20,033 nucleotides of DNA from a virus: positions 1 through 20,033 of the IMG/VR virus record IMGVR_UViG_3300042468_001024. The stretch is one strand, 5' to 3'. Below are positions 63 through 17,024 of this stretch, one piece after another. The notes beneath the pieces were generated by a model. It was not told the origin of the DNA, ran no database searches, and saw nothing but the letters and a program-made list of their open reading frames with translations. Each line of letters opens with the position of its first letter. The stretch's first letter is position 1. The position numbers and the translations under genes are program-made.

Positions 63-326
63 CTACTTGTTCTCGTGCCATGCGGGCCCGTGGATCAGCG
101 GGATGTGGTGCCTGCAGGCCCGTCTCGCTTCGCCCCACTGCCTCAACATCGCTCGCGTCTGTCGCACGCACTCTGCCGCGCTCGACCACACATCGGCGTG
201 GCCCTCCTCGCTCCCCAGGCACGGCCCGAGGCTGCGGTGCCCGTCGCGGTCAAACCCGAATCGGAACTGCACCGCGTGCCATCCGTCCGCGCAGACGATT
301 GCGTAGAAGCCCCAGACGAAGGTCAT
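63..326 (-). CDS. Hypothetical protein, 87 aa
   Basis: I do not recognise this protein. It is short, with many aromatic residues near the N-terminus (MTFVWGFYAIV) and several histidines, tryptophans and cysteines (C12, C36, C53, C71). No signal peptide or clear membrane segment is visible. The start is chosen because its ATG overlaps the stop of the upstream regulator gene by four bases (ATGA, 323-326), which implies translational coupling. It is the second gene of the leftward unit that begins at 718, so it is probably expressed together with that regulator. It may be an accessory lysogeny or host-takeover protein, but nothing in the sequence proves a role. Confidence 0.6.
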   Translation of the reverse strand: MTFVWGFYAIVCADGWHAVQFRFGFDRDGHRSLGPCLGSEEGHADVWSSAAECVRQTRAMLRQWGEARRACRHHIPLIHGPAWHENK

Positions 327-718
327 GGGACTGCCTTCTCGGATCGCTCCGCAAACTGCCGACGGATCAGGTAGACGACCGTCGGGCTGATGCCGAACCT
401 CTTCGCGACGCGCGGGCCGCTGCCGACCGACATGGCGATCTGCCGTCGCTGTTCGGGCGTCAGCTTCCCGGCGTGCCTGACCGGCGGCGGGCTCTTGAAG
501 ACCGGCTGTCGGCAGCACGGGCACTGGCCGCAGGCTGGCCCGATCGCGACGGTGCCCTGCTCGCGCAGGTACTTCGCGTCGATGAGCGGCTGCATGAGCC
601 CGTACATGGCGGAGACGGTGATGCCGAGCTTCGGCGCGATCTCGGAGACCGGGGCGCCGGGGTTCTCCGCGAACGCGCGGAGCGCCTGCATCTGGCGGCG
701 TGTGATGGGCGTGACCAT
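323..718 (-). CDS. Regulator with two HTH segments and a Cys cluster, 131 aa
   Basis: Probable DNA-binding regulator of the phage switch. The N-terminal third (about residues 4-55: ITRRQMQALRAF, then VSEIAPKLGITVSAMYGLM) looks like a winged helix-turn-helix of MarR/IclR type. A Cys cluster follows (CGQCPCC, about residues 63-69), possibly metal binding. The C-terminal third (LTPEQRRQIAMSV, then RVAKRFGISPTVVYLIRRQ) looks like a second, resolvase/transposase-type HTH. The reading frame runs up to an ATG at 775, but the codons between carry the palindrome 750-763. The ATG at 718 also lies exactly at the predicted +1 of a leftward promoter, so I chose 718. It is divergent from the plus-strand HTH gene across 94 bp. 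Repressor versus activator cannot be decided from sequence. Confidence 0.72.
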   Translation of the reverse strand: MVTPITRRQMQALRAFAENPGAPVSEIAPKLGITVSAMYGLMQPLIDAKYLREQGTVAIGPACGQCPCCRQPVFKSPPPVRHAGKLTPEQRRQIAMSVGSGPRVAKRFGISPTVVYLIRRQFAERSEKAVP

Positions 719-724
719 GTCGGT

Positions 725-753
725 CTTGTATCGCCTTTCGTCGCATTGTGCAA
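725..753 (-). promoter_or_regulatory. Candidate leftward promoter, leaderless
   Basis: On the minus strand, -35 TTGCAC (753-748), a 17-bp spacer and -10 TACAAG (730-725). The predicted +1 falls on the A of the ATG at 718. Matches to consensus are partial (3/6 and 4/6); spacing and position make the case. Confidence 0.35.
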
Positions 754-763
754 CACAAGTTGC
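750..763. promoter_or_regulatory. Operator palindrome, copy 1
   Basis: GCAACACAAGTTGC has 5-bp inverted arms (GCAAC/GTTGC) around a 4-bp centre. It differs at one centre base from GCAACACGAGTTGC at 8934-8947, the other main control region. It overlaps the -35 of the candidate leftward promoter. Two near-identical dyads, each in an intergenic control region, are what a phage repressor operator set looks like. The binding protein is not identified. Confidence 0.6.
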
Positions 764-776
764 GTTATGTTTCATG

Positions 777-785
777 AGTTGCGTT
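777..785. repeat. Operator half-site direct repeat
   Basis: AGTTGCGTT at 777-785 repeats the AGTTGCGTT at 758-766 exactly, 19 bp away, about two helical turns. The first copy contains the right arm of the palindrome 750-763. The second overlaps the -35 of the candidate rightward promoter, so one protein could occlude both promoters. Confidence 0.5.
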
Positions 786-806
786 TTTGTGGGGCTCGGT
801 TACCCT
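779..806 (+). promoter_or_regulatory. Candidate rightward promoter, leaderless
   Basis: -35 TTGCGT (779-784), a 16-bp spacer and -10 TACCCT (801-806). The predicted +1 is the A of the ATG at 813. The -10 is weak (3/6), but there is no Shine-Dalgarno upstream, which fits a leaderless message like that of lambda cI from PRM. Confidence 0.35.
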
Positions 807-812
807 CACGGC

Positions 813-1010
813 ATGGCCCGCGAGGACAGGTTCGTGACGCTTCCGGAGGTGGCCCGGCTGCTTGGCGTGAGCCGGCAGACGGCGTGGCGACACGCGCAGC
901 GAGCGAACATCAGGCCGGCGATGATGGTCGGCCGCACTGCGGTCTACCGCATGTCGGACCTTCCTCGGTTCCGCGACCGTCCGCCGCGCGGGCGGAAGCC
1001 TGGGTCCTGA
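813..1010 (+). CDS. Small HTH protein (excisionase/MerR-like fold), 65 aa
   Basis: The only plus-strand gene. The motif FVTLPEVARLLGVSRQTAWR followed by MVGRTAVYRMSDLPRF is the usual small helix-turn-helix plus wing of excisionase-type and MerR-like proteins (Xis, Cox, AlpA families), ending in a basic tail (RPPRGRKPGS). Such proteins direct integrase or repress a divergent promoter. The frame stays open far upstream (to 390), but that part is the complement of the two-HTH gene. The ATG at 813 is the natural start, just after the control region. Its last 101 bp overlap, tail to tail, the last gene of the leftward early unit. Whether it is the lytic or the lysogenic arm of the switch is not settled by sequence. 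Confidence 0.75.
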   Translation: MAREDRFVTLPEVARLLGVSRQTAWRHAQRANIRPAMMVGRTAVYRMSDLPRFRDRPPRGRKPGS

Positions 1011-7547: not shown

Positions 7548-7576
7548 CTTATCGGCGAAATCGCAACCGGCGTCAA
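7548..7576 (-). promoter_or_regulatory. Sigma70-like promoter for the recombination/replication unit
   Basis: Minus strand: -35 TTGACG (7576-7571, 5/6), a 17-bp spacer and -10 GATAAG (7553-7548, 4/6). It is the best match I found in the window. The predicted +1 is near 7541. It overlaps the integrase stop codon, so integrase read-through and this promoter would both feed the early unit. Confidence 0.5.
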
Positions 7577-8478
7577 GAGTTTTTCGGGGATGTGGGCAAA
7601 TTGGGGAAAAGCTGGACGATGGGGCGAAGCTCGTCGACCTCGTGCAGGTCGTAGCTCTGCATGGTGGTCCTCGGGTCGACATGCCGGGCGACGCGGCAGA
7701 TCTGGTTGAGGTCCGCCCCGTTCCTGCGCAGGGTGGTGATGAGGCACTTGCGGAAGCGGTGCCAGTTGCCCGCCTTGATCTCGACGCCCGCGGCGCGCAT
7801 GTCTCGCTCAAGGCTCTTGTTGCAGGGGACGCGCGGGAACACGAGCGGGCCCGTCGACCAAGCTCGCCACCGGACAAGGGAATCGGCGACCTGCCTGGTG
7901 ATGGGGATGACATCGTTGCGTCGGGCCTTGTCGTGGGTCACGCGCAGCGTCAGCGATTCGAGATCGATGTCCTCCCAGAGTTGGGCCGACGCCTCGGAGA
8001 ACCGAAGTCCGGTCAGAAGAACGAACCGGTAGAAGGTCGACCGCAGCGGGCCGTGGGCTCGGTGGGCGCCGGGCCGGCGTTCAGCGTCCTCTGCCGCGGC
8101 GACGATGCGCGTCGCCTCGTCGACGGTGAACGGCAGGCACCCTCGCGACTTCGGAGCCCGCGGGAGCCTGATTCCGGCGACGCGGTTGTGCGACAGGATG
8201 CCGCAGGAGACGAGCCAGTCGGCGAATGTCCGGATGACGCTCATTTCGTTCAGGACGGTCTTTCTGCTGACGATTTGCCCGCGTGCCCGCAGCCATCGCA
8301 TGACGGTGATGGGCTCGATCTGGTCCGCCTCGTGAATGCTGGCCCATGCGACGAACGACATGGCGACGCGTCTGCATGTCCTGACATGGATGGGACAGTG
8401 CCCGAGCCGTTGGCCGATGTCCTCGACCCACTCCTCGACGAGCGCGCGGACATCGCCCTGACCTGCGTGCGCGATCAC
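7573..8478 (-). CDS. int: Tyrosine integrase
   Basis: A 301-aa site-specific recombinase that would insert the phage into the host chromosome. The N-terminal core-binding region (about residues 5-105, with VMRWLRARG and VIRTFADWLVSCGILSHN) is SAM-like. The catalytic domain has all expected residues: R159 in TGLRFSEA, K184 in HDKARRND, H240 and R243 in NWHRFRK, H266 in VARHVDPRT and nucleophile Y276 in MQSYDL. The start is GTG, preceded by GGAGG at 7 nt. The length is on the short side for phage integrases and no arm-binding domain is evident at the N-terminus. The promoter of the next unit lies over its stop codon. It shows that this phage is, or was, temperate. Confidence 0.92.
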   Translation of the reverse strand: MIAHAGQGDVRALVEEWVEDIGQRLGHCPIHVRTCRRVAMSFVAWASIHEADQIEPITVMRWLRARGQIVSRKTVLNEMSVIRTFADWLVSCGILSHNRVAGIRLPRAPKSRGCLPFTVDEATRIVAAAEDAERRPGAHRAHGPLRSTFYRFVLLTGLRFSEASAQLWEDIDLESLTLRVTHDKARRNDVIPITRQVADSLVRWRAWSTGPLVFPRVPCNKSLERDMRAAGVEIKAGNWHRFRKCLITTLRRNGADLNQICRVARHVDPRTTMQSYDLHEVDELRPIVQLFPNLPTSPKNS

Positions 8479-8850: not shown

Positions 8851-8946
8851 CAGTTGTCCTCCACCCACAGGGTGCGGGGGAATTGTGCGCGGTCAAGCGT
8901 ACAAAATCACTTCGGACAACATCGGACATATTTGCAACACGAGTTG
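8851..8946 (-). promoter_or_regulatory. Control region between late genes and the integrase unit
   Basis: 96 bp with the second operator palindrome (8934-8947), a direct repeat of TCGGACA in one-turn phase (8912-8928) and a small hairpin at the ribosome site. No convincing -35/-10 pair was found. This is probably where the lysogeny regulator acts on integrase transcription. Confidence 0.5.
8912..8928. repeat. Direct repeat TCGGACA, 10-bp period
   Basis: TCGGACA at 8912-8918 and again at 8922-8928, exactly 10 bp apart, so both copies face the same side of the helix. It lies just beside the operator 8934-8947. This is a possible tandem site for an activator or excisionase-type protein. Confidence 0.4.
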
Positions 8947-8947
8947 C
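8934..8947. promoter_or_regulatory. Operator palindrome, copy 2
   Basis: GCAACACGAGTTGC, 13 of 14 bases identical to 750-763, with the same 5-bp arms. Its last base is the first of the complement of the stop codon of the 187-aa gene. It sits upstream of the membrane-protein/integrase unit. Confidence 0.6.
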
Positions 8948-9510
8948 TACTTACCGGGCGAGGTAAGGCGATTGAGCTTTGGCTGGGCCAGCCGGGCAGC
9001 CTCGGCGAGCATTGCGGAAATGACCCCCCGGGCCTGAACGCTGATTCCTGCAATCGCACGACGCCATGAGCCCCACGATCCGGTCGATTCGCCCCACTTG
9101 CCCAGCGGGCACGCGACCGCTGGCATCGTCAGCTTCACATCGAGCGTCGCCCGCTGCCGAGTGCCGCAACCGCACGAGTTGCACCAGCCGAGCGATTGGC
9201 CGGACGGATCAGGCATCCGCTTCGGGCAGTCGTGACACTGGCGGACACGCTCGTGCAGCACGGGCAGCGACACCGGGCCCTGACGCATCAGTGACGCCTC
9301 GGCACGAGCCCAATCAATGGCGCTCGCCTTTTTCGCGACCTCCTGCGACTCGCGACGCATGTCGACGAGCTCGCCCGTGCGGATGTCCACTTGCGTGTGG
9401 CACTCCGCGTCCGAAACCCGCTCCCATCGCGGCAGGGGCTTCTCGTCGCGCCAGACCATCCGAACCGTCTGGCCGTCGCTGTTTGTCCGTTGGTAGATCC
9501 CGCAGGTCAT
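8947..9510 (-). CDS. Cys-ribbon protein, 187 aa, last late gene
   Basis: Family not recognised. The N-terminal half is charged (MVWRDEKPLPRWERV, then RRESQEVAKKASAIDWARA). Cysteines then follow as C92-x2-C95, C110-x2-C113-x-C115 and C134 in ACPLGKWG, a likely zinc ribbon or treble-clef knuckle. The C-terminus is an amphipathic helical tail (AMLAEAARLAQPKL). The start ATG overlaps the stop of the Cys-rich gene (ATGA, 9507-9510). It is the final gene of the late region before the operator at 8934. The ribbon and CPLGKW ending suggest a nucleic-acid or protein-binding role in the cytoplasm, unlike its upstream neighbour, whose cysteines are far more numerous. Confidence 0.65.
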   Translation of the reverse strand: MTCGIYQRTNSDGQTVRMVWRDEKPLPRWERVSDAECHTQVDIRTGELVDMRRESQEVAKKASAIDWARAEASLMRQGPVSLPVLHERVRQCHDCPKRMPDPSGQSLGWCNSCGCGTRQRATLDVKLTMPAVACPLGKWGESTGSWGSWRRAIAGISVQARGVISAMLAEAARLAQPKLNRLTSPGK

Positions 9511-10646
9511 GGCACGCACTCTCCGCGCGGGGCATCGCCCGCCGCTGGCGTAAGGGGGCAGTCTGGGAGGTCCGGTCCGGGGTCGGCCGGGTCGCTCGCA
9601 ACGCGGGCACGACATCCGTACGCCGGCGCATCGTCCCACACGCAGTTGAAGTCCTGCTTCCGCTCGAGCGTAATCACGCTGATCCCGTCGAACTCGCACA
9701 CATAGTCCTCGACGCAGCAGTCGGTGGACTGGTTCACCACGCGATAGCGGTAGCAACATTTGACCAGCCCGTCGCAGTCGGTCAGGTAAAAGGTACTCGT
9801 CGGAACGCAGCCCGGAATGAACGGACTGAGCACCACGCAGTTGGCGTTGGTCGTCGGGTAGCCGTTGGCGTCGTACTCGACGGTGCACGGGAAAATGCAG
9901 ACGCCCGGGTCTTCGCCCTCGCACGGTTCCGACGAGCACTCGCACGGATTCTGCCATCCGAGCCCCGCCTGGTTCGTGCAGGTGCACGCCGTCGAGCCGA
10001 TGCAGTTGATGCAGGGTCCGTTGTCGACATCGCCCGGGCAGGTGCCCGCGCATGTCCATTCCCAACCGGGCGCCGTCGCCGCGGGCAGGTAGAACGGACT
10101 GCCGAGCGCATCGACGAACCGGCACGGCTCGACGCTGTCCGGCCGCCAGTCGCTCGGCGTCGCGCACACATCCTCGATGACCCGGCAGCCCGCGCAGACC
10201 CATCGGATCTCCAGCGGGTAGTTGCACGCGGTCGGGGTGCCGGGCGGGAAGTTGCTGTTGCCGTTTAGGGTGAACTGGTAGTAGGGATGACAGTAGCAGA
10301 ACCCGTCGTCGGGGTTCGTGCGGTAAACGACGAGCCCGTCGCACGGCGTCGCGGTGCACTCGTACTCGACCCACAGGTCGGGCTGGTCGCTGCACTCGAT
10401 CGTGTAGCAGCACCGCTTCGGATAGGTGATCTCCGGCGGGCACGAAGCCCCGTCGCACGATGCGGTGAACGGAGCGCCGGAGCAGGACATCGCGTTCGAG
10501 AACATCGCGACCGTGTCAAACGCGGGACGCGGGAAGGTCAGCCGCAGGACATCCCCCAGCCGATAGCAGCAGCCGCCGGCATCGCCCTGCGGGCCCTTCC
10601 AGCACTGGCAGCACGCTCCGGCACAGCAGCACCGCGCCCCGCTCAT
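9507..10646 (-). CDS. Very cysteine-rich protein, 379 aa, about 46 Cys
   Basis: No family recognised. About 12 percent of residues are cysteine, spread along the whole length: ARCCCAGACCQCW at the start, RCCYTIEC, DGFCYCHPYY, CINCIGSTACTC, NPCECSSEPCEG, KCCYRYRVV and DCCVEDYVC. Spacings are irregular, with no repeat unit I can define. There is no signal peptide. Ser, Thr, Asn and aromatic residues are common as in extracellular adhesins. It could be a disulfide-stabilised virion surface or receptor-binding protein folded after release, or a metal-rich protein. The ATG overlaps the stop of the 57-aa gene (ATGA, 10643-10646). It sits between the fibre and lysis-like genes and the Cys-ribbon gene. 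Confidence 0.68.
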   Translation of the reverse strand: MSGARCCCAGACCQCWKGPQGDAGGCCYRLGDVLRLTFPRPAFDTVAMFSNAMSCSGAPFTASCDGASCPPEITYPKRCCYTIECSDQPDLWVEYECTATPCDGLVVYRTNPDDGFCYCHPYYQFTLNGNSNFPPGTPTACNYPLEIRWVCAGCRVIEDVCATPSDWRPDSVEPCRFVDALGSPFYLPAATAPGWEWTCAGTCPGDVDNGPCINCIGSTACTCTNQAGLGWQNPCECSSEPCEGEDPGVCIFPCTVEYDANGYPTTNANCVVLSPFIPGCVPTSTFYLTDCDGLVKCCYRYRVVNQSTDCCVEDYVCEFDGISVITLERKQDFNCVWDDAPAYGCRARVASDPADPGPDLPDCPLTPAAGDAPRGECVP

Positions 10647-10816
10647 CCCTGTCGCGCCTTCGCCGCATCCACGGCGGCGTCCCACTTCGATTCGCTCACC
10701 GCAACGCGGGCCTTGATCTCGGCCACCTTCTCATCGGACACCTCGCCCTTTGCGGCGAGCGTGTCGAGGATGTGCAGCATGGCGTTGATCCCCGCGATGA
10801 TGATGCTCGGATTCAC
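10643..10816 (-). CDS. Small helical protein, 57 aa
   Basis: Unrecognised and short. It starts MNPSIIIAGINAMLHILDTL and ends in a charged helical run (SESKWDAAVDAAKARQG). The N-terminal half is an amphipathic or weakly hydrophobic helix and the second half is a likely coiled helix. The start codon is GTG, in a GTGA overlap with the lipoprotein stop (10813-10816), and its stop forms ATGA with the next gene. This fit on both sides is the main reason to believe it. It may be a structural or lysis accessory; unknown. Confidence 0.6.
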   Translation of the reverse strand: MNPSIIIAGINAMLHILDTLAAKGEVSDEKVAEIKARVAVSESKWDAAVDAAKARQG

Positions 10817-11142
10817 TTCTGCACCTCCTCGGCGTAGGCAGCCGCAAGCTCGATGATGCCGCCCTTGGCGACGGACAGCCAGTGCTCGAAGCCCTCGCCG
10901 CCCTCGGGCAGTTGGGCCTCGGCGACCTTCAGCGCGCCCCGCGCGACCTTCTCGACCTTGTCGGCCTTGATGAGCGTCGCGTCGCTGACGACGCCCGCGG
11001 CGTGGAGTTCAAGGGTTGTGTCTCTGGCGATGTTGAGCGATTCCGCCGCCGACGCCCACCGAGCCGTCGGAGTCGATCCGCAGCCAGCCAAAAACCCGAC
11101 GATGCAGGCAAGCAGGCACAGGCCCGCGGTGATGGTTCTCAT
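10813..11142 (-). CDS. Lipoprotein, 109 aa (possible outer spanin)
   Basis: The N-terminus MRTITAGLCLLACIVGFLAG is followed by a Cys at position 21, so the lipobox is LAGC and the mature protein would be lipidated. The rest is helical and charged (SAAESLNIARDTTLEL, then KADKVEKVARGALKVAEAQL), without further Cys. Small phage lipoproteins beside a membrane protein are often outer-membrane spanins (Rz1-like) used in the last step of lysis. The neighbour upstream has one membrane span and a coiled coil, as an inner partner would. This is somewhat longer and less Pro-rich than classic Rz1, so the role is tentative. Its start overlaps the upstream stop (ATGA, 11139-11142). Confidence 0.68.
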   Translation of the reverse strand: MRTITAGLCLLACIVGFLAGCGSTPTARWASAAESLNIARDTTLELHAAGVVSDATLIKADKVEKVARGALKVAEAQLPEGGEGFEHWLSVAKGGIIELAAAYAEEVQK

Positions 11143-11540
11143 GGTGAAGTCTCCTTGGACTTGTTCGCCCGGTCGGCGCGCTCGAGCCTGGTCATGCGGG
11201 CATCAAGCTCGTCCATATGCTCCGCGAGCATTCCGATCTTCTGGTCGAGACGCTGAAGAAGGCCCGCGATCACTTCGCCCTGCTGGGTGATCGCGTGCGT
11301 CTCGCCTCGCCCGTTCAGGGCGTTGAGCACGGTCGATCCGCCGCCGGTGCCGAGAACGATCAGGATGGCCCACAGGAGGTACTGATGCGGGATCAGGACC
11401 CCTTGCTTGGTCTGGACGATGCCCCCGGATTCGTCACTCTTCGCTGCCATGCTGACCTCGGCTTCGGTTGCGAACGCTCGGACCCACCCTCCGCTTTTCC
11501 GGATGTCCGTGGGCATTTGGACCGGGTTGATCGTGGACAT
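11139..11540 (-). CDS. Membrane/coiled-coil protein, 133 aa (holin or inner-spanin candidate)
   Basis: One membrane span (about residues 54-72: YLLWAILIVLGTGGGSTVL) is preceded by a soluble N-terminus. After it comes a long heptad-like helix (GLLQRLDQKIGMLAEHM, then LDARMTRLERADRANKSKE). This is compatible with an XhlA-like holin accessory or an inner-membrane spanin; a classical multi-span holin it is not. Start at 11540: AAGGGG lies 7 nt upstream. A later in-frame ATG (residue 31) is possible. The gap to the upstream gene is 3 nt, and its stop overlaps the lipoprotein start. The pair may form the lysis set. Confidence 0.6.
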   Translation of the reverse strand: MSTINPVQMPTDIRKSGGWVRAFATEAEVSMAAKSDESGGIVQTKQGVLIPHQYLLWAILIVLGTGGGSTVLNALNGRGETHAITQQGEVIAGLLQRLDQKIGMLAEHMDELDARMTRLERADRANKSKETSP

Positions 11541-11543
11541 GCG

Positions 11544-11873
11544 TCACCCCTTCGTACCGGTCGAGTTGCACTCGAAGTCGCAGACGACCTCGCCGGTGGT
11601 GGGGTTGACGCGGTAGTAGAGCCGCTTGATCCCGGCGGGCCCACAGGCGATCTGGGCGGACGCGACGCAGTCGTCGATCGTCACCGGATCGGCCGAATCC
11701 ACGGGCGACCACGCGAACCAGAACACCTCGCGCTCGATCTCGACGCCGTCGGCCGAGAGAAACTCGATTCGGTCGGAGTGAAGGTCGACGGAGACAAGCG
11801 GAAGCGGTTCCGGCTGAGAGATCGCAAGAACGCACGATGCGAGAATCGCTGCTGTCGTCACTGGGTGCTCCAT
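11544..11873 (-). CDS. Secreted or surface protein, 109 aa
   Basis: Unrecognised. The N-terminus (MEHPVTTAAILASCVLAISQ) looks like a short export signal. LASC at 11-14 is a weak lipobox but hydrophobic residues follow it, so ordinary cleavage after AIS is as likely. The mature part carries three further Cys (in DDCVASAQIACGP) and a C-terminal beta hairpin KRLYYRVNPTTGEVVCDFEC. The start overlaps the end of the dockerin gene by 16 bp (11858-11873), so the same DNA encodes the last residues of one protein and the first of the other. It may act at the host cell surface. Confidence 0.6.
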   Translation of the reverse strand: MEHPVTTAAILASCVLAISQPEPLPLVSVDLHSDRIEFLSADGVEIEREVFWFAWSPVDSADPVTIDDCVASAQIACGPAGIKRLYYRVNPTTGEVVCDFECNSTGTKG

Positions 11874-12487
11874 TGTGAGAGAAGGATCGCAATGTCAGAC
11901 GCGTCGACGAGCCCGTCGAGGTTGATGTCCGCGATGTGCGGATGTTGCGACCACGCGCCGAGCAGTATCGCATGGTCCACGGCGTCGACGCGCCCGTCGG
12001 CGTCAAGATCGGCGGGCAATCTCGGTTCGGTTCGGCAGACCGCCTGCCCGGACGCGAATCCGGGCAGGGCGATCCGCACGATGTCGCGCATCGCGCCTGC
12101 GCCCGCCTGAATGGCGTTGCCAAGCCTTTCCGCTCCGACGCGGTAGGTCTTGCGCGCAAGAACGATCGCAGACTCATCGACCGGCTGCACGACGCGAACC
12201 GGGCCCCTGTGCCAATCGAGAGACGACGCAAGCGCGAGATCGATGTCGATCTCGACCGGATGCGCGGTCTCGTTCTGTGCCGTGAACCGCCAGGATCGGA
12301 CCGAATCGCCGTTCGCGTCGATCTCGAATCGGACCCAGAACGACATCAACCCGGCGGGGCCGCTCGTCGACATCCGACGAAAGAGCCCGAGCCCGACGGC
12401 CGAGATGGTGTCGGCCTGCGTGGAGACGGGCCCGGCGGCGGTGTCGAACCGGGAAGCGACGGTGATGCTGAACGCGGGCGAACTCAT
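11858..12487 (-). CDS. Protein with C-terminal dockerin-type repeats, 209 aa
   Basis: The last 50 residues are a type I dockerin-like pair of calcium-binding loops: DLDADGRVDAVDHAILLGAW (160-179) and DINLDGLVDASDIAILLSQW (187-206). Each has the D-x-(D/N)-x-D-G-x-(V/I)-(D/N) loop and following helix. Dockerins bind cohesins, and planctomycete genomes carry many such endings on secreted proteins. The first 150 residues are a beta-rich unknown domain (SFWVRFEIDANGDSVRSWRF and so on). The ATG overlaps the fibre stop (ATGA, 12484-12487). Being next to the fibre gene, it may be a virion-surface or host-attachment part. There is no signal peptide, as expected for a virion component assembled in the cytoplasm. 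Confidence 0.8.
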   Translation of the reverse strand: MSSPAFSITVASRFDTAAGPVSTQADTISAVGLGLFRRMSTSGPAGLMSFWVRFEIDANGDSVRSWRFTAQNETAHPVEIDIDLALASSLDWHRGPVRVVQPVDESAIVLARKTYRVGAERLGNAIQAGAGAMRDIVRIALPGFASGQAVCRTEPRLPADLDADGRVDAVDHAILLGAWSQHPHIADINLDGLVDASDIAILLSQWSTQ

Positions 12488-15009
12488 AGCATGGCGCTCC
12501 CGACGACGGACCCGATCGGGCCGGACGACCCGCCGCGCGACTCGCGGCCGACGCTGCCGTCGGCGTTGTTGCCCGGCATGCTTCCGGCGATCGAGATGGA
12601 TGCATGAGCGAGACGGACCATCTCTCGATCGCCGAAGGCGGTGGATCCGGACGGGTGAATGCCGTCGGCGTCGATGTAGTCGTAGTCGGCCTGCATGAGC
12701 CCGCGGATGCGGCTGTGGTCGACCTTCCCGGGCGCGTACCGCCGATCGCGGAGCTTCTGCGGCATGATGTCCGCGACGAGCCCGGGCACGCGGGTCGCGA
12801 ACTCGGTATAGGCCCCGGTTCCGTTGACGATCGACGGAGCGTCGATGAACCAGCATGTCCCGCCGCTGTTGACGCAGAGGTCGGCGAACTTGCACTGTCG
12901 CTCGGCGATCGTCGCGGCCGCGGCAAGCGCTGCGGCGTGCGATGCGGTCGCCGCGGTGACATCATTGACGACGCCGCAGATGAGGACGCCGTGGATGTCC
13001 GGGCATCCGGAAAGCTGCGGCCAGATGTGCGTCTCGCTCTCGCTGAGCCTGGAGCCAGACAGCGACAGATTGAGGCAGATGTCGATGCCACGCATGCCGC
13101 CCTCGGTGGCGATGCAGTCGTATCCGCCTGGGACCGTCGCATCGGTCGCCTGGTTGAAGTACTGGCCCATTCGCTGAGAGGGAGTTTGGAGGGCGGGACT
13201 TGCCCCGATCGTCCCGTCGGCTGTGGCAGACGGAATCGTCTCAGAGACGGTAAGTACCGTGGTGTTCGTGGCCGGGGGGTTGTATGTGATGGCCGTGATG
13301 GTGTATGTCCCATTGTTGCCCGTAGATCCGGTCACGGCGAACTTCATGCCTACGGCGAACGCCGCACGCTGGTCGCCAGACATCGTGAATGTCTTAGATC
13401 CGGTGCTGACAGCGGTGATGCTGTAGCCTCCGAGGGCCGCCGTCACGAACGAGTCGCACTCGATCGCCCGGCATCGGGCATAGACGCCGACTCCGCCGAT
13501 TTCAGCAGAGGTGGAACCGCTGAATGTGCCCACGATGACGAACCCGCTGATGGCAGTCCCGTCCCATGTTCCGGCGGTGGTGTACCGTCGGAGCTTGGTC
13601 GCGGACTTGCTGACGGTGGTGACATCGTTCAGCAGGATCTGCGTCAGGGCCCCCTGCTTGATGCCGACGATGATTTCGAACCGGGTCGAAGTGGAGAGCC
13701 CGGTCTGCTTCGTCACTCCGTCGACGATCAGGGAGTTTGTCGATGAGTTGATCTGGATCGTGTGCAGCGTCGGGCCGGGGTTTCCGGTGATGTCGATGCT
13801 GATGTTGCAGTTGTTGCCGTGGTAGATGTCGGAGAATCGAATCCAGACATACCCGTTCTCGCCCTTCGGCGAATCGGCGGACCCTCCGGTCCAGACCTCG
13901 GTTGCGGTCTGAATGTTGAAGGTCTGCCCCGCCGTTCCCGCGATGACGAACCGGCTTCGGCCGGGGTTGTTGCCGCTGGTCGAATAGGCCGTGCCCGTCG
14001 CGGGCAGCGTCGCCGTGCCGGAGATGTTCCACGCCCCCCCTTGACGGGTGCCGTTGTTTGAGAAGAGAGCCGAGTACCAGCGACGGAGATCGCGGTTGTC
14101 GGATGTGTTCTTCGTCCAGTTGGGGGCGAGGTCAAGATCCGCCTGCGGGACGGTGCGGACCATGATCGGCGGGGCGTAGCGGATCTTGACGCCGGTGATG
14201 GCGTTGAATCCGGAGCCGATGCCGACGAGGCGGGCCAGCCACGCCTGCGTCGTGACGAAGACATCGGCTGAGGTGTAGCGTGCGACGAGGACATCGTTGA
14301 TATAGAGCGACGCTCGCCCGTCGGTCGCGGTGCTGGTCGTGGCCCGCTCCCAGTTGATTCGGACTTTCGCCCATGAGCCCATTGAGAGCATCATGTTCGG
14401 GTTTTCCACTGCGCCTCCGCCAACAACCGAGGCAATCGTCTCGGTGGGAGTCGCGAGGGACGAGATGTCCATGCCCCAGCCCGGCGCGAACCCGCCTCGG
14501 TTGCGGGTTAGGACACGGAACTGGCTGTTCGTCTCTGCGCCGCCGCCCGTGTCGATCGTCTGAGCGATGACCTGGGCCGCGTTGTTGGCCGGGTTGGTGT
14601 CCCGGACATAGGCCCCGCTCGTGACAAGCGAGAGGAAGAATGAGACCTCAAAGCCGTCCTGAAGTTGGGCCGTGGTGAGTGACGCAAACAGGGAGTTGTT
14701 CAGGAACTCGACGAACTGTCCCGAGACCCCAGCCGGGAACTCGATGTAGCCCGTCCCGGTAGCCCCCGCTGGCTTCGCGTCGTCGCCCTGCGTGCCCCAT
14801 GCGTTGAAGGTTCCGCGTGCCGCATTGCTGGCCGCAAGGTTGATGATGCCAGCACCGTCCCCGGATGCGTAGTAGTTTCCGGTCGAGGCAAAAGTCGGGT
14901 AGGTCGTGACTGCGCCCGACCAGGTGACATCGGCACCCGTGCCGACATTGGTGATCGAGTTCTCGCCTCCGGCGACTCCGGTGACGATGCGGTGGTTCGT
15001 GATCGGCAT
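12484..15009 (-). CDS. Large tail fibre/tip protein with SGNH-hydrolase-like end, 841 aa
   Basis: Likely receptor-binding or glycan-modifying fibre. Residues 1-600 look like consecutive beta-sandwich (LamG-like) domains, rich in G, T, S and N: for example GYIEFPAGVSGQFVEFLNN, then RASLYINDVLVARYTSADVF. At about 645-788 an SGNH-esterase-like pattern appears: NLSLSGSRL (block II), GVVNDV (679-684, block III GxND) and DGIHPSG (782-788, block V D-x-x-H). A block I GDS with the nucleophile Ser is not seen where expected. The end is Gly/Ser-rich. Members of the fold deacetylate host glycans. It lies between a 134-aa protein and the dockerin gene. Confidence 0.7.
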   Translation of the reverse strand: MPITNHRIVTGVAGGENSITNVGTGADVTWSGAVTTYPTFASTGNYYASGDGAGIINLAASNAARGTFNAWGTQGDDAKPAGATGTGYIEFPAGVSGQFVEFLNNSLFASLTTAQLQDGFEVSFFLSLVTSGAYVRDTNPANNAAQVIAQTIDTGGGAETNSQFRVLTRNRGGFAPGWGMDISSLATPTETIASVVGGGAVENPNMMLSMGSWAKVRINWERATTSTATDGRASLYINDVLVARYTSADVFVTTQAWLARLVGIGSGFNAITGVKIRYAPPIMVRTVPQADLDLAPNWTKNTSDNRDLRRWYSALFSNNGTRQGGAWNISGTATLPATGTAYSTSGNNPGRSRFVIAGTAGQTFNIQTATEVWTGGSADSPKGENGYVWIRFSDIYHGNNCNISIDITGNPGPTLHTIQINSSTNSLIVDGVTKQTGLSTSTRFEIIVGIKQGALTQILLNDVTTVSKSATKLRRYTTAGTWDGTAISGFVIVGTFSGSTSAEIGGVGVYARCRAIECDSFVTAALGGYSITAVSTGSKTFTMSGDQRAAFAVGMKFAVTGSTGNNGTYTITAITYNPPATNTTVLTVSETIPSATADGTIGASPALQTPSQRMGQYFNQATDATVPGGYDCIATEGGMRGIDICLNLSLSGSRLSESETHIWPQLSGCPDIHGVLICGVVNDVTAATASHAAALAAAATIAERQCKFADLCVNSGGTCWFIDAPSIVNGTGAYTEFATRVPGLVADIMPQKLRDRRYAPGKVDHSRIRGLMQADYDYIDADGIHPSGSTAFGDREMVRLAHASISIAGSMPGNNADGSVGRESRGGSSGPIGSVVGSAML

Positions 15010-15444: not shown

Positions 15445-16659
15445 CTACGCCACAAAGAGCGTCGGCGAGTAGGTGGGTGCGAACGGTCGGCGGATGCGCC
15501 ACGCGACGAAGTCGTGCTCCAGGACCTGCGTCGTCGCGTGAGCCGTTCCGGCCTTGCTTTCGATGGCTCCGAACCCGAAGGAACGGTTGGTCCCGACGGG
15601 GACATTTGCGGTGCCGACATTGGCGTTGGTGACGGTGAAGCTGCCGGACGCTCCGTTCACCCACCATTCGAAGGTCATGTCGCCGCTCGTGGCTCGCGTG
15701 ACGCGGAGCTTGATCCAGTAGTAGGTGTTGATCGCGAGCGAAGTGCCGACGCACTGCGTACGGGTCTCGACGCCGTTGTTCCGGTTGACCCACCACCATG
15801 TGGTGTCGTTGGTCGTGCCGTTCACGAGGTACTCGAGGTACATGCCGTTCGAGGCGAGGCCCGTGAAAGACCCGTTGAACCCGACTCGGATGTAACCCTG
15901 CGTTCCGGCCGCAGGGATCGCCGCTCCGGTGCGGAATGCATACTCGCTCTCGTAGACGCAGACAGCGCTGACGCCCGGGGTCGGCACGCCGACGAGGATG
16001 TCGGTCGAGGTTCCGTAGCTCGCATAGCCGGTGTTGTTGTTGGTCGTGCCGGTGCCGAGCGTGAGGACGCCGAACGCCTGCGCCTCGGACGCCTGCACGA
16101 TGGCGGCGGTGCCGATCGCGATCGAGCCGCCGTTGCCGGAGCGTGCGAGCAGCGGCGAGACCTCGAGCGAGCTCGAGGCCGAGACATTGTAAAAATGAAC
16201 CAGCCCGCCCCACTCGATGACACCCGCCGTCGAAAAGTCGTGGTACTGGCCAGCGATGCGGGTTGCGCTCGTACCGGCCGGTCCCTGCGGTCCGGTCGCC
16301 CCGGTCGCGCCCGTCGCTCCGGCAGGGCCCTGCGGGCCTTCCGGTCCGGTCGCGCCCTGCGGTCCGGTGGCTCCAGTGGCCCCCGTCGCTCCGGTCGCGC
16401 CAGCGGCCCCCTGCGGGCCCTCTGGGCCGGTTGGACCGGCAGGACCCTGCGGGCCGGTTGCTCCGGTGGCACCCGTCGCTCCGGTCGCGCCTGCTGGACC
16501 AGTCGCCCCTTGCGGACCGGTAGCGCCCTGCGGACCAGCAGGTCCGGTCGCTCCAGCCGCTCCGGCTGGACCCTGTGGACCAGGCGCGGAGACCTTCGCC
16601 GACGGACGGTCGGACGAGACGAGGACTCTCGCGATCTCCCTGATCACGGTCACGCTCAC
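15445..16659 (-). CDS. Collagen-like fibre protein, 404 aa
   Basis: Probable trimeric tail or head fibre. After a 26-residue head come about 34 unbroken Gly-X-Y triplets (residues 27-128: mostly GAT, GPQ, GPA and some GPE), which form a collagen triple helix. The remaining 275 residues look like a beta-sandwich head: [48 protein letters not shown] and DFVAWRI, resembling LamG/concanavalin-like fibre ends. The start codon is GTG at 16659, in a GTGA overlap with the upstream stop (16656-16659); an ATG at 16686 is open but would overlap more. Collagen repeats are known in phage fibres and lend a stiff shaft. Confidence 0.82.
16276..16581 (-). repeat. Collagen-coding repeat, 34 Gly-X-Y triplets
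   Basis: A 306-bp 9-base-periodic stretch coding the Gly-X-Y shaft of the fibre. Its codon bias keeps G/C at third positions. On the plus strand it reads as a false Pro/Ala-rich open frame. Such repeats vary in length by slippage, so the count may differ between isolates. Confidence 0.8.
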
Positions 16660-17024
16660 GGCGTCACCCCCGCGGTCACGAGGCAATCGCCCTGCACCAG
16701 GCGAGTCGCGCGGCCTCCGCCGGCGGTGAGGAGCAGGTCGTATACATACTTCCCGGGCACCAGCGTCGCCGTGGTCGCCTTCGCGACGACGACGGTGATG
16801 TTGCCGCTCGAGTCAAGCGCGATGCCAGTGGTGTCGCCAGAGCCGCCGGATCCGCTCGAGATGTCGAGGATCGCCTGACCGATCGCGGCCTCGTAGGCGC
16901 TCTTGACGACCAGCCGGGCCGCATAGCCCGTCAGGTTCACCGGCGAGTCGTTGGAGTCGAGCCACTGGAGGGCCTGCACGAAGGTCGCGTTCTGGTCGAT
17001 CGTGATGTTGAGCGTGTCGGCCAT
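16656..17024 (-). CDS. Baseplate/tail-associated protein, 122 aa
   Basis: A beta-rich small protein. The N-terminus [20 protein letters not shown] and following [13 protein letters not shown] resemble the Ig-like N-terminal domain of phage baseplate upper proteins (BppU-type), which dock fibres. The C-terminal part [18 protein letters not shown], then [14 protein letters not shown], completes the fold. That is a pattern-based guess. The ATG lies one base after the stop of the 163-aa gene, and the stop overlaps the collagen-fibre start (GTGA). Placed between the tail genes and the fibre, an adaptor role is plausible. Confidence 0.62.

Follow-up and report, generated by a model that had tools for sequence, protein, structure and literature searches.

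The lambda cI message made from PRM is leaderless and arises from a divergent operator region. In PY54, the cI and cro messages are both leaderless: they start from divergent promoters, RACE placed their 5' ends at the AUG, and a palindromic operator separates the two genes (PMC4488713). Apl and other recombination directionality factors work at switch promoters as well as at att, and the small HTH factors 186 Apl and P2 Cox are usually encoded at the head of the early operon (PMC7498355); proteins of the Xis/Cox/BldC type form filaments on direct repeats spaced by roughly one helical turn (PMC5859096, PMC11963761). In leaderless genes of the TANNNT type in Actinobacteria and Deinococcus-Thermus, the -10 box sets +1 at the start codon (PMC3898074, PMC12340547). 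Here, a 94-base stretch of a viral genome fragment (positions 719-812) is compared with these systems; it probably starts two opposite messages, as predicted from its promoter boxes, exactly at both flanking start codons (Table 1). In our preferred reading, to which we assign a probability of about 0.45, it is a divergent early control region in which the product of the rightward gene, P0002, would bind both -35 regions, repress both promoters, and couple them to the integrase.

The window, meaning the whole stretch of DNA analysed, is a linear virus record of 20,033 bp (IMGVR_UViG_3300042468_001024, positions 1 to 20,033) with nearly all of its genes on the minus strand. The tyrosine integrase points to a temperate phage, and together with tail genes and genes for recombination and replication (a RecE-like exonuclease, a Bet/RecT annealing protein, an SSB-like protein, and a primase-helicase) it suggests that the window is part of the genome of a temperate, siphophage-like virus; a collagen-like (G-X-Y) tail fibre gene lies at 15445-16686. 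The closest matches of the window proteins among named phages were distant and scattered, tblastn of P0001 and P0002 against named phages gave no useful relatives, and a DNA search with the control region in named phages gave no match. A scan of a genome collection returned only partial HTH matches in scattered bacteria, a search for the integrase in viral contigs found nothing, and a scan of the whole window detected no Rfam family and no tRNA.

Table 1. Positions of the control-region elements, flanking genes, and integrase-side features in the window.
Feature	Position	Strand	Remarks
P0001, 131 aa: N-terminal wHTH, CxxCxCC cluster, C-terminal HTH	323..718	-	ATG at predicted +1
Leftward promoter (predicted), TTGCAC-N17-TACAAG	725..753	-	Predicted +1 at A718; from sequence; -35 box and 17-base spacer kept in G001 and L009
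Conserved block GCATTGTGCAACNCAAG	743..759		Over leftward -35 box; absent from the features listed in the earlier note
Palindrome GCAACACAAGTTGC, GCAAC-ACAA-GTTGC, candidate operator	750..763		Overlaps leftward -35 box; 13/14 sister at 8934-8947
Direct repeat AGTTGCGTT	758-766 and 777-785 (758..785)	+	Copies 19 bp apart; second copy overlaps rightward -35 box
Rightward promoter (predicted), TTGCGT-N16-TACCCT	779..806	+	Predicted +1 at A813; from sequence; counterpart in G001 and L009; in relatives, strict form over-represented upstream of small HTH-like genes
P0002, 65 aa, HTH_17/MerR-like winged helix (excisionase-and-regulator family)	813..1010	+	ATG at predicted +1
Tyrosine integrase	7573..8478	-	PF00589 2.9e-13; phrog_1 1.1e-34
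Second palindrome copy GCAACACGAGTTGC	8934..8947		13/14 match; intergenic, directly after a stop codon, upstream of integrase operon

Reading leftward, TTGCAC (753-748) is followed by 17 bases, TACAAG (730-725), six bases, and the ATG at 718-716; reading rightward, TTGCGT (779-784) is followed by 16 bases, TACCCT (801-806), six bases, and the ATG at 813-815. The coordinates given in the earlier note for promoters, palindrome, and half-site all proved correct on re-examination, as did the -10 box spacing that puts the predicted +1 at the ATG of both genes and the overlap of 750-763 with the leftward and of 777-785 with the rightward -35 box. That neither gene has a Shine-Dalgarno sequence in range was likewise confirmed, compared with 21 of the 28 window genes that have one; an AAGG about 15 nt upstream of the P0001 ATG is too far away to score. 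Both -35 boxes match the sigma-70 consensus at 3/6 positions and the -10 boxes at 4/6 and 3/6, hexamers so weak that a standard scan (9-of-12 threshold) reported neither promoter. The unusual feature is the position of the promoters relative to the ATG, not the quality of the hexamers. Of the window's 580 ATGs, a loose rule (TTGNNN, a spacer of 15-19, a TA box with at least 3/6 matches, 5-8 bases, ATG) picked out 3, which include the starts of P0001 and P0002; in the related 42.4-kb genome G001 (IMGVR_UViG_3300044608_002225, also L005) it picked out 1 of 1069, namely that of the P0002 homologue. When the 94 bp were shuffled with dinucleotide composition kept, both promoters arose together in 0.02% of cases.

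A strict form of the rightward rule, TTG-N19-TANNNT-N6/7-ATG (16-base spacer), was applied to forty primase relatives and phage loci including the window, G001, and L009 (IMGVR_UViG_3300037508_001807), about 0.52 Mb in all. It occurred 11 times, against an average of about 2 and a maximum of 7 for other spacers from 4 to 39, and eight of the 11 occurrences precede proteins of 65-105 aa: P0002, P0004 of G001, the L009 copy, and single genes in L087, L092, L098, L100, and L103. These last five are all divergent from a tyrosine integrase and lie on the primase strand. Matches to excisionase/regulator families were obtained for P0002, P0004, and the proteins from L087, L092, and L100 (three of the five integrase-linked genes); those from L098 and L103 have weak or no HTH family matches, and their inclusion rests on position. 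In several of the five, GAGG adjoins the first ATG and another ATG or GTG follows within four codons; some integrase-linked relatives may therefore carry a short leader. Both features are missing from P0002 and P0004. The same integrase and HTH gene without the strict promoter were found in L101, L105, and L107, and L003 and L010 were rejected as unrelated HTH matches. TGTACA palindromes in the integrase-HTH intergenic regions (two in L087 at 1894-2093, two in L100 at 279-456, and one in L103 at 918-1125) are possible operators of a different specificity.

The rarity of the ATG position, the G001 homologue, and the peak at spacer 16 before small winged-helix-like proteins make the predicted leaderless start of P0002 well supported. 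Both promoters might instead be accidental hexamer matches, the genes being translated from other transcripts without Shine-Dalgarno sequences, and the consensus match of only 3/6 and 3-4/6, the empty 9-of-12 scan, and the lack of a Shine-Dalgarno sequence in some other window genes would agree with this; nevertheless, the position statistics, the conservation in G001 and L009, and the spacer-16 peak across relatives make an accident quite improbable.

P0002 is plausibly a small HTH regulator suited to an early switch, with profile matches to PF12728 (E = 1.8e-8; 35 bits against a cut-off of 27) and phrog_66 (E = 8.5e-8). Its AF2 model (pLDDT 81.6, moderate confidence) has the strand-HH-wing-helix order of a wHTH fold, and Foldseek recovered BldC, MerR, and RacA, at a TM of about 0.58 for the BldC and MerR proteins, although with E > 0.05. 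Alternatively, P0002 could be a packaging DNA-recognition domain, similar to a small terminase, rather than a regulator: there is a weak phrog_141 match (1.4e-3; 1e-3 for P0004), packaging-protein domains appear among its weak fold matches, and P0004 points towards the terminase genes in G001. At 65 aa, however, the protein is too short for the oligomerisation part, P0002 in the window is oriented in the direction opposite to the virion genes, and its excisionase/regulator match is stronger than that to phrog_141, so we consider a packaging role very improbable. About 100 bp of the P0002 gene coincide with the 3' end of a well-led gene on the minus strand (910-1314), which makes the pair convergent and antisense.

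The P0002 homologues in G001 and L009 share 47% protein identity and 56% coding-DNA identity with the window gene, and the control region before each reads GCATTGTGCAACNCAAG, then TTGCAA-N16-TACGCT-N7-ATG. The GCATTGTGCAACNCAAG block, which in the window encloses the dyad TTGTG-CAA-CACAA (746-758), is identical in all three except at N. The window and G001 control regions have a 12-base identical word in common, whereas shuffled regions gave words of at most 10 bases (500 trials); the G001 and L009 regions differ at two bases, both between the two -35 boxes, and as close relatives these genomes count as one independent comparison. Matches to the block pattern in other viral contigs were unrelated sequence, followed by no similar control region or HTH gene, and were judged to be chance. 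G001 and L009 also keep the predicted leftward promoter, as TTGCAC-N17-TAGACT, but with a different gene behind it. In G001 this promoter would drive an operon of small genes (10325-12584) that has good, repeated AAGGAG leaders and a serine recombinase at its end.

P0001 has profile matches to PF13384 (1.2e-8) and PF09339 (6e-7), and its predicted structure (pLDDT 63) was too poor for a fold search. A near-identical copy, of which part is present (61/61 aligned N-terminal residues identical; 99% DNA identity over window positions 526-711), occurs in G001 within an early operon, where its GTG overlaps the stop codon of the upstream gene. Since this GTG aligns with the P0001 start codon at 718, a 150-aa version of P0001 from the ATG at 775 was rejected. 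Similarity stops roughly where the start codon lies, and the P0001 gene appears to have been joined there by recombination to a pre-existing promoter, so that its leaderless start would be given by the position of the junction. Mosaic junctions between the window and G001 fall near 711 and near 9026, and window positions 8947-10646 are about 95% identical to G001 within otherwise diverged genomes.

Opposite the P0002 homologue, G001 and L009 carry other genes in a different divergent operon. The earlier note had proposed a compact lysis/lysogeny switch pairing P0001 with P0002; in CI/Cro-like form, the two leaderless regulators would repress each other. Their divergent orientation, the candidate operators over both -35 boxes, and the two leaderless-type starts are in keeping with this, and PY54 shows that such a layout exists. 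The divergent region, the leaderless-type starts, and the HTH regulator of that proposal are supported, but the pairing of a 65-aa with a 131-aa protein as a switch is not supported: two conserved regulators facing each other, as in a CI/Cro-type switch, were not found, the partner being different in G001 and L009, and the P0001 copy sits inside an operon. The apparent joining of P0001 to an existing promoter also argues against a conserved pair, and mutual repression is therefore unlikely.

An inverted repeat with 5-bp arms as good as that at 750-763 occurs in 37% of shuffles, so the palindrome alone means nothing. Even when one mismatch was allowed, GCAACN4GTTGC did not occur in G001 (42 kb), and L009 lacks it too, so the palindrome is not supported as a conserved operator. 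The sister copy at 8934-8947 lifts it above chance level, with 0.003 copies expected per shuffled window at up to one mismatch and 0.012 for GCAACN4GTTGC, post hoc figures obtained on a site that the earlier note had fixed beforehand. The 9-bp direct repeat AGTTGCGTT arises in about 2% of shuffles and is not kept in G001 or L009; a weak middle copy, TGTTTC, lies at 768 between the two copies, and the three-copy phasing within 719-812 was not significant (8.5% of shuffles). A terminator scan listed 748-765, at the palindrome, but an intrinsic terminator there was rejected because the scan found fewer such sites than in shuffles and the site lies among promoter elements. Adjoining the second palindrome, a TCGGAC direct repeat with copies 10 bp apart (8912-8927; 4.5% of shuffles) possibly represents arm-type or directionality-factor sites.

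The N-terminal HTH of P0001 is identical in G001, where the palindromic site is absent even with one mismatch, and P0002, which has diverged from its G001 homologue, would therefore be the better candidate reader. With the same leaderless divergent promoters, the palindromes could nonetheless be operators of a dimeric repressor encoded outside the fragment, P0002 being merely one of its targets, or of P0001. A symmetric dimer would fit a palindrome, a pair of matching sites, one at each of two operons, resembles a regulon, and the window is a linear fragment in whose 20 kb no lysogeny repressor of the CI type was identified; the 19-bp spacing and the shared palindromic site also suit a dimeric reader better than a protein of the Xis/Cox/BldC type. 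Against this explanation, no gene for such a repressor was identified, and its P0001 form meets the objection from G001; we regard it as possible but doubtful. In favour of our preferred reading, the leaderless geometry recurs at the homologues despite their low protein and coding-DNA identity, and G001 has a second, weak HTH_17 (excisionase-like) gene beside its integrase (7648-7803) but no palindrome, whereas the window has the palindrome and no HTH_17 gene at the matching place.

The anatomy of the region, its conservation, the sister site, and the exchange of partners are observed; for the 5' ends, the binding protein, repression, and the role in excision, we infer the following under our preferred reading. 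From the rightward TTG-N19-TANNNT promoter, the message would begin at the P0002 AUG, and this small excisionase-, Cox-, Apl-, and BldC-like winged-helix protein would be translated without a leader; the conserved leftward promoter would happen, in this phage and by virtue of the junction, to start at the AUG of P0001. Binding of P0002 to the GTTGC/GCAAC elements that cover the two -35 boxes would repress both divergent promoters, and through the palindrome on the upstream side of the integrase operon the protein could connect this control with integrase expression or with excision. A broader version, which we think rather unlikely, is that an excisionase-like leaderless regulator with fixed TTG-N19-TANNNT-N6/7-ATG geometry replaces CI/Cro as master switch in a widespread, undescribed class of temperate phages; the gene opposite (an integrase, a resolvase operon, or another regulator) would be freely exchanged and a shared operator would link early transcription to integration. 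A limited search of the open-access literature found no description of an excisionase-like regulator combined with fixed leaderless geometry and an exchangeable partner. If the preferred reading is right, this would be a recurring design in uncultured temperate phages in which promoter geometry stays fixed while the divergent partner swaps; TTG-N19-TANNNT-N6/7-ATG before a small wHTH gene would serve to locate such control regions, and GCAACACRAGTTGC offers a concrete candidate operator connecting the early region with the integrase operon.

We regard the locus as varying a known type of phage switch, not as the new kind suggested earlier, since PY54 already provides a documented pair of divergent leaderless regulators and Apl-type factors already act at switch promoters and att; it is a variant in that the excisionase-like side recurs and P0001 is a swapped-in partner. 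PY54 is a telomere phage with CI/Cro-type proteins, whereas here an excisionase-like wHTH protein faces an unrelated two-HTH protein and the starts are predicted. In lambda only cI is known to be leaderless, and its proteins are unrelated to P0001 and P0002. Compared with the TANNNT genes of Actinobacteria and Deinococcus-Thermus, a TTG -35 box is also present here. In fold and size P0002 resembles BldC, RdfS, and Pukovnik Xis, all HTH_17 winged helices (PMC5859096, PMC11963761), and BldC (68 residues) is among its best PDB matches, at about 22% sequence identity. The promoters of 186 Apl and P2 Cox are face-to-face, with direct repeats 10-11 bp apart, whereas those here are divergent, with 19 bp between repeats and a shared palindrome; and where Apl and Cox share sites between switch and att, the window has the palindrome at 750-763 and 8934-8947, with attP not located.
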